From Bacteroidales bacterium (GTDB lineage Bacteria > Bacteroidota > Bacteroidia > Bacteroidales > UBA932), in NCBI GenBank assembly GCA_017473705.1, contig JAFUJQ010000010.1, positions 48,978-112,977 of the forward strand: a stretch of 64,000 nt of DNA. Reading direction: 5' to 3'. The notes beneath the pieces are model-generated. The model ran no database searches. It had not been told where the DNA came from and saw only the letters and a program-made list of their open reading frames with translations. How positions within the stretch are numbered: the stretch's first letter is position 1; every line of letters starts with the position of its first letter. Positions 25,116-27,782 of this stretch are shown piece after piece. Position numbers and translations under genes: made by a program.

Positions 25116-26129
25116 GTGGGTGTAAAGAAGGTAATAAAGGACTGGATACTTCCGATTGCAATGGTGACCGGTGCTTCGTTGTACCTTTTATACTACATGA
25201 TGCCTGAACCGGTGCATCGTGCCGGCCCTTTCCTGAGCAGGATGGTGGGCATCGTCCAGCCTTTGCTGATTTTCGCGATGCTTTTCCTGACCTTCTGCAG
25301 AATAGAACCGAAGGAACTGAAACCCCATAGATGGCATTGGTGGCTGCTGCTGATCCAGGGCGGACTTTTTACACTTCTTGGCCTGGGCGTTGTCCTGATT
25401 TCCAGACACGTCCCTGGCGGAGCGCAGGATGCAAGAGTGCTTATGGAAAGCGCCATGCTGTGCCTCATATGCCCGACTGCCACGGCTGCTGCGGTCGTTA
25501 CCCGCAAGCTGGGAGGGGATGTGCCAGGCATCACGACATACATAGTCCTGATAAACATCCTTGCAGCCGTGCTGGTGCCATTGATTGTTCCTCTTATCCA
25601 GCCAATGGCCGGAATGACCTTCTGGGAGGCATTCAGCCTGATACTTGCCAAGGTTCTGCCACTGCTCATGCTGCCATGCTTCTGCGCATGGCTGGTGCGA
25701 TATCTCATGCCGAATCTGCACAGGAAACTGCTCCAGTGGGAGGACCTTCCGTTTGATATCTGGGTGGTTGCCCTCGTGCTGGCTATATCGGTGACTACTA
25801 AGGCGATAGTCCGAAGCGAAATGAGTTGGTCCTTGATAGGTCTGATGTCGTTTGTCTCGCTCGTTTGCTGCGCCTTCCAGTTCGCGGCCGGACGCTATGT
25901 AGGAGGAAAGTACAGACCAAGGAGACAGAACGTAAGTCCGGAGGTCGAACAGCGAGGCAGGGAGGTGCGCAAGGTGACGGCCGGCCAGTCCCTCGGTCAG
26001 AAGAATACGGTCTTCGCCATTTGGCTGGGCTATACCTTCATGACCCCGGAGACAGCCATTGTCGGAGGATTATACAGCATCTGGCACAACGTATACAATT
26101 CTTGGCAGTTATATAGTTCCTATGTTTGA
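25116..26129 (+). CDS. Bile acid:sodium symporter (BASS)-like transporter
   Basis: This 337-residue membrane protein has about nine or ten helices, with the pseudo-repeat and the polar stretch CLICPTATAAAVVTRKLGGD expected of the BASS superfamily. The C-terminal conserved segment GYTFMTPETAIVGGLYSIWH is present. The substrate is unknown; relatives carry bile acids, organic acids or pantoate. The start is GTG at 25116 because no in-frame ATG fits. Its stop codon abuts the predicted left end of the IS110-family element. Confidence 0.75.
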   Translation: MGVKKVIKDWILPIAMVTGASLYLLYYMMPEPVHRAGPFLSRMVGIVQPLLIFAMLFLTFCRIEPKELKPHRWHWWLLLIQGGLFTLLGLGVVLISRHVPGGAQDARVLMESAMLCLICPTATAAAVVTRKLGGDVPGITTYIVLINILAAVLVPLIVPLIQPMAGMTFWEAFSLILAKVLPLLMLPCFCAWLVRYLMPNLHRKLLQWEDLPFDIWVVALVLAISVTTKAIVRSEMSWSLIGLMSFVSLVCCAFQFAAGRYVGGKYRPRRQNVSPEVEQRGREVRKVTAGQSLGQKNTVFAIWLGYTFMTPETAIVGGLYSIWHNVYNSWQLYSSYV

Positions 26130-26142
26130 AATCCAAATAAAG
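26129..26142 (+). repeat. Candidate left inverted repeat of the IS110-family element
   Basis: AAATCCAAATAAAG, exactly complementary to 27714-27727. It overlaps the last base of the BASS-type stop codon. Confidence 0.45.
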
Positions 26143-26148
26143 TTTGAG

Positions 26149-26232
26149 TGAGCTTTTCAAGCTCATGAGGAGCGCTCAACGGGGCCGTCGGCCCCGGCCG
26201 CTAAGGCTTAACCCCGAGAAGTTTTTCATGAG
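26149..26232 (+). other. Structured 5' noncoding region of the IS110-family element
   Basis: Three nested or adjacent hairpins can form: TGAGCTT/AAGCTCA (26149-26165), GGGGCC/GGCCCC (26181-26195), and an outer CTCATGA (26162-26168) with TCATGAG (26226-26232). IS110-group elements carry their bridge RNA here, so this is the alternative location for such an RNA. No guide match was found. Confidence 0.45.
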
Positions 26233-26253
26233 TTTGTTTCAAGAGAAAGAAAA

Positions 26254-26315
26254 AAGCTATCGTATTTTGGTTACTTTGTAAAAGCAAAAAACCGTAACCA
26301 TTAATACAATAGCTT
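26254..26315 (+). promoter_or_regulatory. Long hairpin ending at the transposase start codon
   Basis: AAGCTATCGTATT and TTGGTTAC (26254-26274) pair with GTAACC and AATACAATAGCTT (26294-26315) to form a stem of about 20 bp with a 19-base loop. The ATG follows directly at 26316, so the ribosome-binding region is inside the stem. In read-through mRNA this would hide the start. Confidence 0.7.
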
Positions 26316-27395
26316 ATGAAGAAAGGACAAAGAAAGCAAATTAGCTTCAAAGGTCAAAGGATTTTTATAGGAATTGACGTTCATTTGAAGAGCTGGAGTG
26401 TAACCATAGCATCTGAGCACGCTGTTCTGAAAAGGTTCACTCAATCCCCAAGTCCGGAAGCGCTATACAGCTTCTTGACAAGAGAGTATCCAGATGCGGA
26501 GTATAAGTCCGTTTATGAAGCAGGATTCTGTGGCTTTTGGATACACGAAAGATTAATGGAACTCGGCATTGACAACATCGTGGTCAATCCAGCCGATGTT
26601 CCGACCACAACAGGTGAGAAGCTTCGCAAGACTGATGCGATAGATAGCGTAAAGCTTGCAAGAACCCTTCGAGCCGGAGAACTTAAAGGGATATACATCC
26701 CTGACAAGGTCTCGCTTGAGATACGTTCATTGATAAGATTGAGAGACTCGATAACAAAGGATCAGACCCGTCAGAAGAACCGCATCAAGTCCCACCTGCG
26801 CTATCTTGGTATAGAGATTCCTCAGGAGTACTGCGAACGCGGCCGCTGCTGGAACAAGAGTTTCGTGGCATGGCTTCGCAGTGTAGAGTCGGCATGTGAG
26901 TATGGCAAGCAGACTCTGGATCAGCTTATATGTCAGTATGAGGATCTTCGCAAGCGTCGCCTGGAGATGATCCGACTACTGCGCAGACTGTCGAGGACTG
27001 AAAGGTTCTCGGAACCGCTGGGATGGCTGATGTCAGTGCCAGGAATCGGTCAACTGACCGGAATGACATTTATGTCTGAGATAGATGACATCTCGCGCTT
27101 TAAGAATGCGGATCAGTTAGCCTCCTATATCGGAATGATACCGATGTGTCATTCAAGCGGTGAACACGACGGAACAGGAGATATAACATTGCGCTGCCAT
27201 TCCAAACTCAGGGCTGTGCTCATAGAAGCTGCCTGGGTGGCAATCAGACAGGATGCTGCTATGACACAAGCCTATATAGAATACTGTCGCAGGATGAAGC
27301 CAAGCAAAGCGATAATCAAGATAGCTAGAAGGCTGGTAAATAGGATCTACTTTGTGATGAAACATAAAAAGAAGTATGTCAACAACGTTGCATAA
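26316..27395 (+). CDS. IS110-family transposase (DEDD / Tnp20 recombinase)
   Basis: This 359-residue recombinase has the two domains of the family. The N-terminal RuvC-like DEDD domain has Asp21 in IGIDVHLKSW, Glu68 in YEAGFCGFW, and Asp107/Asp110 in KTDAIDSVKLAR. The C-terminal Transposase_20 domain has PGIGQLTGMTFMSEI and the catalytic-serine region CHSSGEHDG (Ser280/Ser281). A coiled coil links them. Length is normal and the frame is unbroken, so it may be active. IS110 enzymes insert via a serine intermediate guided by an element-encoded bridge RNA. Confidence 0.95.
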   Translation: MKKGQRKQISFKGQRIFIGIDVHLKSWSVTIASEHAVLKRFTQSPSPEALYSFLTREYPDAEYKSVYEAGFCGFWIHERLMELGIDNIVVNPADVPTTTGEKLRKTDAIDSVKLARTLRAGELKGIYIPDKVSLEIRSLIRLRDSITKDQTRQKNRIKSHLRYLGIEIPQEYCERGRCWNKSFVAWLRSVESACEYGKQTLDQLICQYEDLRKRRLEMIRLLRRLSRTERFSEPLGWLMSVPGIGQLTGMTFMSEIDDISRFKNADQLASYIGMIPMCHSSGEHDGTGDITLRCHSKLRAVLIEAAWVAIRQDAAMTQAYIEYCRRMKPSKAIIKIARRLVNRIYFVMKHKKKYVNNVA

Positions 27396-27400
27396 TAGAT

Positions 27401-27573
27401 TTTTATCCTTTAGAGTAAACAAACTTTCCCGGGAGAGAGTACTTTTTCATGTTTGCGGCTTTGGAGTCCGCTCTAAATAGTTTGTACCTCCCACCTTTGT
27501 AAACTGATACAGGAACCTGCGGCGCTGCAAGACAGATGTCCGCTTTGGAAAGTTTGTTTACCGAAGGATTAAA
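27401..27573 (+). ncRNA. Candidate bridge RNA of the IS110-family element
   Basis: A 173-base segment closed by a long stem: 27405-27429 pairs with 27547-27569, including an unbroken TAAACAAACTTTCC match. Inside are two domains. Domain 1 is GGGAG..GTAC (27430-27441) pairing with GTACCTCCC (27484-27492), holding a GCGG/CCGC hairpin. Domain 2 (about 27500-27546) has CAGG/CCTG and GCGG/CCGC pairs. Two looped domains on one stem is the bridge-RNA plan. Domain 1 carries ATGTTTG (27449-27455), identical to the 7 bases just left of the inferred left end. A MITE-like palindrome is the alternative. Confidence 0.5.
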
Positions 27574-27713
27574 TTCGAGTCTCTGAATTTCGGCCCTCCG
27601 CCAAGGGACGATTAGTGAATATGCACTATTATCAAAAGCATCATATTGTTGCGTTTGATATAAAATATTGAATATTAATAATATATAAGTTAACCAAAAA
27701 TTAATGAATCCAA

Positions 27714-27727
27714 CTTTATTTGGATTT
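27714..27727 (-). repeat. Candidate right inverted repeat of the IS110-family element
   Basis: CTTTATTTGGATTT, the complement of 26129-26142. It also takes part in a local hairpin, AATCCAA with TTGGATT (27707-27726), so a small terminator or chance match remains possible. The stretch between the candidate RNA and this point is AT-rich and shows no gene. Confidence 0.4.
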
Positions 27728-27782
27728 TAACTGGAAAGACATGAACACGTTCATGATAATGCGAAATTATAGGTATTTTTAG

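Follow-up and report, generated by a model that had tools for sequence, protein, structure and literature searches.

A predicted bridge RNA in the 3′ noncoding end of an IS1111-type insertion sequence from Bacteroidales

IS1111 elements and the present locus

The bridge RNA (seekRNA) mechanism of IS1111 elements has been known since 2024. Elements of this group have subterminal inverted repeats of 7 to 17 bp, and bridge RNAs were predicted in 93.0% of its members (PMC11208160). The predominant seekRNAs copurified from IS1111 elements are 82 to 96 nt long, and the guides are ordered with the top-strand match 5′ of the bottom-strand match (PMC11187229). We analyzed a 64,000-nt stretch of DNA from a Bacteroidales bacterium (hereafter, the window), in which a sequence-only reading had proposed that the noncoding DNA 3′ of an IS110-family transposase gene specifies such an RNA. 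The window element shares with the IS1111 seekRNA elements ISEc11, ISPa11, ISKpn4, and ISPst6, as these are described in PMC11187229, a downstream noncoding region, subterminal repeats, and two target matches, that to the top strand lying 5′ of that to the bottom strand; it differs from them in its Bacteroidales origin, its target, its long closing stem, and in that its RNA is predicted only. Like the bridge RNA of IS621, an IS110-group element, the window RNA would have a target loop and a donor loop with two guide strands each, the two transposases are related, and both elements rebuild a promoter across the circle junction (predicted in our case). However, the IS621 RNA lies in the left end and the window RNA in the right end, with its donor nucleotides at the multiloop, an arrangement reported for many IS1111 members (PMC11208160). 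ISPpu9 also carries small RNAs, Asr9 and Ssr9, beside an IS110-family transposase gene, and these are described, unlike the RNA predicted here, as regulators of transposase expression (PMC8450116).

We estimate a probability of roughly 95% that the 3′ noncoding DNA specifies a bridge RNA (seekRNA) belonging to an insertion sequence of the IS1111 type, a reading backed by fold, covariation, 3′ location, and linkage to the transposase. An RNA of about 170 nt from the right end would bind the DEDD transposase. In the target loop, the 5′ strand would pair to the right of the cut, on the top strand, and the 3′ strand to the left of it, on the bottom strand, and the second loop would pair with the circle junction formed by the ends of the excised element. 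The transposase would then exchange strands at the A|G step, and the element would enter between TATATA and GACATGAA. Expression, transposase binding, and recombination are steps that we infer from the literature. The claim of a "new programmable recombinase-RNA pair" holds, as a prediction, for the pair; the kind of system is already known and only the member is new, no description of it having been found among open-licence PMC papers. With its relatives, mostly from Bacteroidales, the locus adds a natural collection of RNA-guided recombinases, and about thirty pairs of guide and insertion site offer material for deriving targeting rules.

The insertion sequence, its ends, and its circle junction

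By its domain content, the encoded protein (Table 1) is an IS110-family (DEDD) transposase. It matched NF033542, "IS110 family RNA-guided transposase," with 215.6 bits against a cut-off of 140 (1e-63), as well as PF01548 (4e-16) and PF02371 (3.3e-24). At residue 273 it reads GMIPMCHSSG as compared to the IS1111 motif GL-P----S(t)G, so that G--P----SG is present and M replaces L. The best PDB matches, which cover the C-terminal part only, were ISCro4 (9t56, E of 1.9e-8) and IS621 (8wt6, E of 2.2e-7). The 3′ location had been taken to fit the IS1111-like branch, and the element bears this out: the noncoding region is longer downstream (342 nt) than upstream (200 nt) of the transposase gene, which is the IS1111 layout, and subterminal repeats are present, which at 19 nt with one mismatch are slightly beyond the published range (16 nt without mismatch).

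Table 1. Coordinates of features in the window and of the antisense segment in related loci
Feature	Positions	Strand	Description
Left target half	26110–26116	+	TATATA plus G common to element; uninterrupted site in L066
IS1111-type insertion sequence	26116–27737	+	1,622 bp; left end 200 nt, right end 342 nt
Left-end donor half	26116–26121	+	GTTCCT, complementary to guide G3
−7 box	26121–26128	+	TATGTTTG, fits Bacteroides TAnnTTTG
Left subterminal inverted repeat	26126–26144	+	19 nt, 18 matching right repeat
Transposase ORF	26316–27395	+	359 aa; DEDD_Tnp_IS110 and Transposase_20 domains; G..P....SG motif
Bridge RNA (seekRNA) region, predicted	27402–27575	+	Covariance model R1, 182.2 bits (window copy itself part of the model's alignment)
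Closing stem, 5′ arm	27405–27429	+	Fold; covariation (helix 1)
Target-binding domain, predicted	27431–27492	+	Outer stem, internal guide loop, GCGGC/GUCCGC tip; helices 2–4
Guide G1, predicted	27446–27454	+	TTCATGTTT; complementary (one G-U) to A + GACATGAA right of element
Guide G2, predicted	27474–27480	+	TAAATAG; 6/7 match to left target TATATAG; pairs with other strand
Guide G3, predicted	27511–27516	+	AGGAAC, complementary to left-end GTTCCT (donor)
Donor-binding domain tip hairpin, predicted	27519–27543	+	GCGGC/GUCCGC; helix 5
Guide G4, predicted	27546–27552	+	TGGAAAG = right end TGGAAA + first base of left end
Closing stem, 3′ arm	27547–27569	+	Fold; covariation (helix 1)
Right subterminal inverted repeat	27712–27730	+	19 nt, pairs with left repeat, one mismatch
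−33 box	27719–27722	+	TTTG; 20 nt from TATGTTTG after ends join in circle
Right-end donor half	27732–27737	+	TGGAAA
Right target half	27738–27745	+	GACATGAA
Target for the window element's circle junction as donor, predicted			TATATAGACATGAA
Antisense segment in relatives	L012:3775–3925	−
	L008:3757–3907	−
	L053:2802–2952	−
	L028:1131–1281	+	Others also

The element ends were set by the conserved termini of relatives and by an element-less site in the relative L066. Because the termini are constant among relatives (left, AG|TTCCTATGTTTG-like; right, CTGGAAA-like or CATAGAAG), the window element was placed between the coordinates given in Table 1. The neighboring gene occurs without the element in same-genus genomes, from which 12 relatives were cut out, 4 omitted for length, and 8 aligned. 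The empty site in L066, the best of these 8, reads TTATATAGGGC and the window TTATATA|GTTCC, the two being alike up to TATATAG; the other 7 differ in this stretch. The upstream gene ends in ...WQLYRAGKQ-stop in L066 and in ...WQLYSSYV-stop in the window, indicating that insertion replaced its last codons and that its stop codon now lies inside the element. To the right of the insertion point, the 8 aligned relatives show no conservation, and the right junction is therefore based on the relatives' termini. The exchange point is A|G, from which the true position may be offset by 1 to 2 nt, and the core could not be narrowed further in this alignment. When the element's own genome was searched for unoccupied target-like sites, the pattern proved too short to be informative.

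Only once the element has circularized would the left-end −7 box and the right-end −33 box come together. In Bacteroides fragilis, the promoter consensus consists of a −33 TTTG and a −7 TAnnTTTG, and the same source reports the −33 motif as not found in Flavobacterium johnsoniae (PMC7366714). When ends were joined for the 26 elements having both, TTTG-N20-TATGTTTG was present in 15, all of them with one TTTG at spacing 20 and four with a second TTTG elsewhere. Five of the remaining 11 have a variant −7 box and six have no TTTG; read by eye, ten of the 11 retain TTG in that position. Closure of the circle would assemble a Bacteroides-type promoter at the junction, from which expression would follow.

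RNA fold, predicted guides, and alternative explanations

Folding reproduced exactly the long closed stem that had been drawn by eye from complementary arms (27405–27429 with 27547–27569), and the two inner hairpin domains claimed with it were found at 27431–27492 and 27519–27543, together with a small third hairpin. The stem starts 10 nt past the transposase stop codon. The minimum free energy of 27401–27573 is −56.4 kcal/mol compared to a shuffle mean of −39.3 (SD 3.9), which corresponds to a z of −4.35, with 0 of 200 shuffles as good. Thermodynamic folding of the longer stretch 27396–27730, suggested as a check, gave a z of −3.81 and 0 of 100 shuffles as good. The tips of the target and donor domains are alike (TGCGGC...GTCCGC) and look as if they had been duplicated. 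An Rfam search of the RNA returned one chance match only, with an E of 0.99 and 16.6 bits as compared to a gathering score of 40; with nothing above threshold, a known Rfam family was rejected, and the present set would supply an Rfam-type model for a family unmatched by Rfam 15.

The structure is conserved. Covariation among relatives, another check suggested, is present in the RNAs of both clades examined. In clade A (20 RNAs, 35-pair structure), 91.8% of cells are paired versus 38 to 52% when the structure is slid, 11 of the 35 pairs changed on both sides, and 0 of 500 shuffles were as good on four of five measures; the "further pair types" measure was not above shuffles (110 of 500), and pairing in helix 3, part of the target stem, reached just 67.5% of cells. 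In clade B (11 RNAs), the transposases of which are about 44 to 48% identical, 94.9% of cells are paired, 17 of 27 pairs changed on both sides, and 0 of 500 shuffles were as good on all five measures, with the RNAalifold structure having been derived from the same alignment used to test it.

The 3′ arm of the closing stem is able to pair with either the 5′ arm or a middle arm (∼27499–27505). The helix of the middle and 3′ arms is paired in 89.9% of cells in clade A, without covariation there; in clade B the middle helix covaries and the outer helix, 83.5% paired, does not. Clade A favors the 5′-arm pairing and clade B shows covariation for the middle arm, a pattern that may reflect either one fold or a switch. 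In the predicted fold, 5′-arm/3′-arm pairing buries the donor guide G4 in the closing stem.

For the target loop, we scored each element's right flank against the strand that precedes the first tip on its 5′ side (G1) and its left flank against the strand that follows this tip on its 3′ side (G2). The positions of the guides and the patterns used to cut them out had been picked or adjusted by eye before the permutation tests. The window G1 scored 8 (p = 0.0034 against random window 16-mers) and the window G2 scored 5 (p = 0.054), which is weak alone. Over the element set, G1 scored 6.30 against its own flank and 3.89 against those of others (27 elements), and G2 scored 5.40 and 3.63, respectively (25 elements), with 0 of 20,000 permutations as good in both cases. 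The match is most striking in L051, L050, and L010 for G1 and in L055 and L064 for G2. L013 is an outlier (score of 3) that was kept in the counts. Before these counts, L009 and L049 (duplicates of L008), L026 (internal deletion), L006 (contig end, guides of L007), L029 and L059 (contig ends), and L057, L060, L061, and L062 (no motif found by the script) were dropped and rows with identical guides collapsed; L002, L019, and L031, which are distant or partial, never entered. Permutation within clades, on the earlier set plus three further elements with rows of identical flanks collapsed, again gave 0 of 20,000 for G1 (32 right flanks) and for G2 (28 left flanks). By clade, the counts per 20,000 were 0 (A-main), 131 (A-Alistipes), and 0 (B) for G1, and 164, 11,699, and 0 for G2; G2 is thus not significant in the Alistipes subclade, where the sites share (T)AAAG. 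The covariance model later yielded eight elements, of which seven reached p ≤ 0.033 for G1 and one, L090, gave a poor fit (p = 0.12). The 32-element set already includes L090, L092, and L093, and six of the eight share G1 with an earlier element, so that the novelty there lies in the sites. Left out of these eight were L094 (the L010 element), L098 (a degenerate remnant), and L095, L096, L097, L099, and L122, in which the guide or right flank lies past the contig edge. Across the element set, the target loop matches both flanks, which is the decisive evidence for its predicted guide function, and the order of the guides, G1 (top-strand match) 5′ of G2 (bottom-strand match), is that of IS1111.

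L013 (3770–4132) has two tandem copies of the right-end tail at a distance of 149 bp; of the two, the outer one alone is followed by a flank fitting the guide (score of 7).

The corresponding donor test, in which the ends are low in diversity and the script cut the G3 of the Alistipes subclade wrongly, gave 234 of 20,000 permutations as good for G3 against the left end (21 elements) and 128 of 20,000 for G4 against the right end (8 elements). Ends and donor guides partly covary (GGGAA/GGGAAG, ATAGAA/ATAGAAG, GTTCT/AGAAC). A match of the donor loop to the element's own ends is moderately supported by these data, more weakly than that of the target loop. This difference, the sequestration of G4 in the closing stem, and the short length of the predominant published seekRNAs (PMC11187229) would suit an RNA that, like those of 82 to 96 nt, serves targeting only, the donor ends being read mainly by protein via the subterminal repeats; both donor strands nevertheless match the ends and partly covary with them, and we consider a targeting-only RNA unlikely, though it keeps appreciable weight beside a bridge RNA with two loops.

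Loop strands that vary with the flanking insertion sites find no account in a terminator, and the window copy has no U-run. For these reasons we rejected as very improbable the view that the fold serves the 3′ UTR of the transposase mRNA as a terminator or stability hairpin and nothing more, even though it is stable and lies directly after the stop codon, and six of 20 clade-A RNAs (L007, L008, L016, L022, L023, and L046) have at least five U residues at or near the stem end. In those six, the stem may double as a terminator.

The bridge-RNA reading is also consistent with the distribution of the RNA, which is linked to the transposase. The element's own genome (2.35 Mb in 171 contigs, 71% complete) has one transposase of the window type and a distant one of 27% identity. 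Covariance model R1 matched two places there, the window and a contig-edge fragment, and it matched in 18 of 350 same-genus genomes. Full-length matches adjoin a transposase gene or its 3′ part at a contig end, the exception being L098, a degenerate remnant without a transposase hit; short matches sit at contig edges. The same palindrome occurring genome-wide without a transposase had been named as what would point to a MITE, and no second full copy without a transposase is present in the own genome. A MITE or dispersed palindrome that chances to adjoin a transposase gene would explain the long palindromic fold and the second match in the genome, but with only two R1 places there, one at a contig edge, and full-length matches in own and same-genus genomes accompanying a transposase save in the L098 remnant, it is refuted as the main reading and retains almost no probability.

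Transposase matches were found in 13 of 299 family genomes at 1e-30 and in 15 of 393 order genomes at 1e-60 (own genome counted in each). Fourteen loci lie in named genomes of Alistipes, Dysgonomonas, Bacteroides, Parabacteroides, Prevotella, and Bacteroidales and in three MAGs labelled Clostridiales, Actinomycetota, and "bacterium." This distribution suggests an Alistipes-like gut bacterium as the host. Close relatives were absent from plasmids at 1e-40 and from phages at 1e-20, and of 8 stretches in viral contigs, 0 were confirmed; at 1e-6, 1,527 plasmid records contain distant IS110-type relatives, all below 60% identity.

The contig-edge fragment in the own genome (L004/L005, contig C167) is a second RNA of another subtype, 77% identical and cut by the contig end. 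Its guide differs and its right flank, TTTCGATTTA, matches that guide, indicating two differently aimed elements in one genome. In L017, which shares a contig with L030 and L035, the transposase gene is broken (five pieces by tblastn) and the RNA region is still 93% identical.

Start-codon sites and a second conserved segment

Two testable ideas arise from the element set: that guides are directed against start codons, and that the end holding the bridge RNA also encodes a second RNA in antisense orientation. CAT is present in G1 of 11 elements of the main clade-A group for which the right flank is known (L007, L008, L011, L012, L013, L014, L016, L024, L046, L123, and the window). As cut by the script, 10 of the 11 have an ATG 3 to 8 bases into the right flank, and the eleventh, L013, has one at base 6 beyond its duplicated right-end tail; none of the five elements without CAT (L025, L010, L017, L027, and L121) has such an ATG, a pattern that was sought after the flanks had been seen. 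The ATG opens at least 50 codons in 7 of 10 (L007, L024, L014, L011, L012, L046, and L123) as compared to a baseline of 7.7% in random 16-nt windows; the frame closes after 13 codons in the window, 10 in L008, and 12 in L016.

We tentatively propose, at somewhat under even odds, that this clade aims its bridge RNA at translation starts, with the guide CAU pairing with AUG, and that many relatives carry an antisense RNA as a possible regulator. If so, CAU/AUG pairing would land the element a few bases upstream of open reading frames, and the antisense RNA could regulate the guide RNA or transposition.

The second conserved, RNA-like segment lies in the right end of many relatives, antisense to the transposase gene (Table 1); the window element is without it, and the segment had no Rfam match above threshold. 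Its motif occurs 9 times in 149 order genomes, in all 9 cases beside a CATAGAAG right end; one of the nine loci reaches the transposase and the others end near contig edges. The segment is located 65 to 81 nt from the right end in 18 of 18 rows, some of which are copies within one genome, and a TAnnTTT box is found ∼23 nt upstream of AGG in 17 of the 18. A closing stem of at least 7 pairs is present in 10 of 11, and the inner hairpin covaries, with 97.7% of cells paired.
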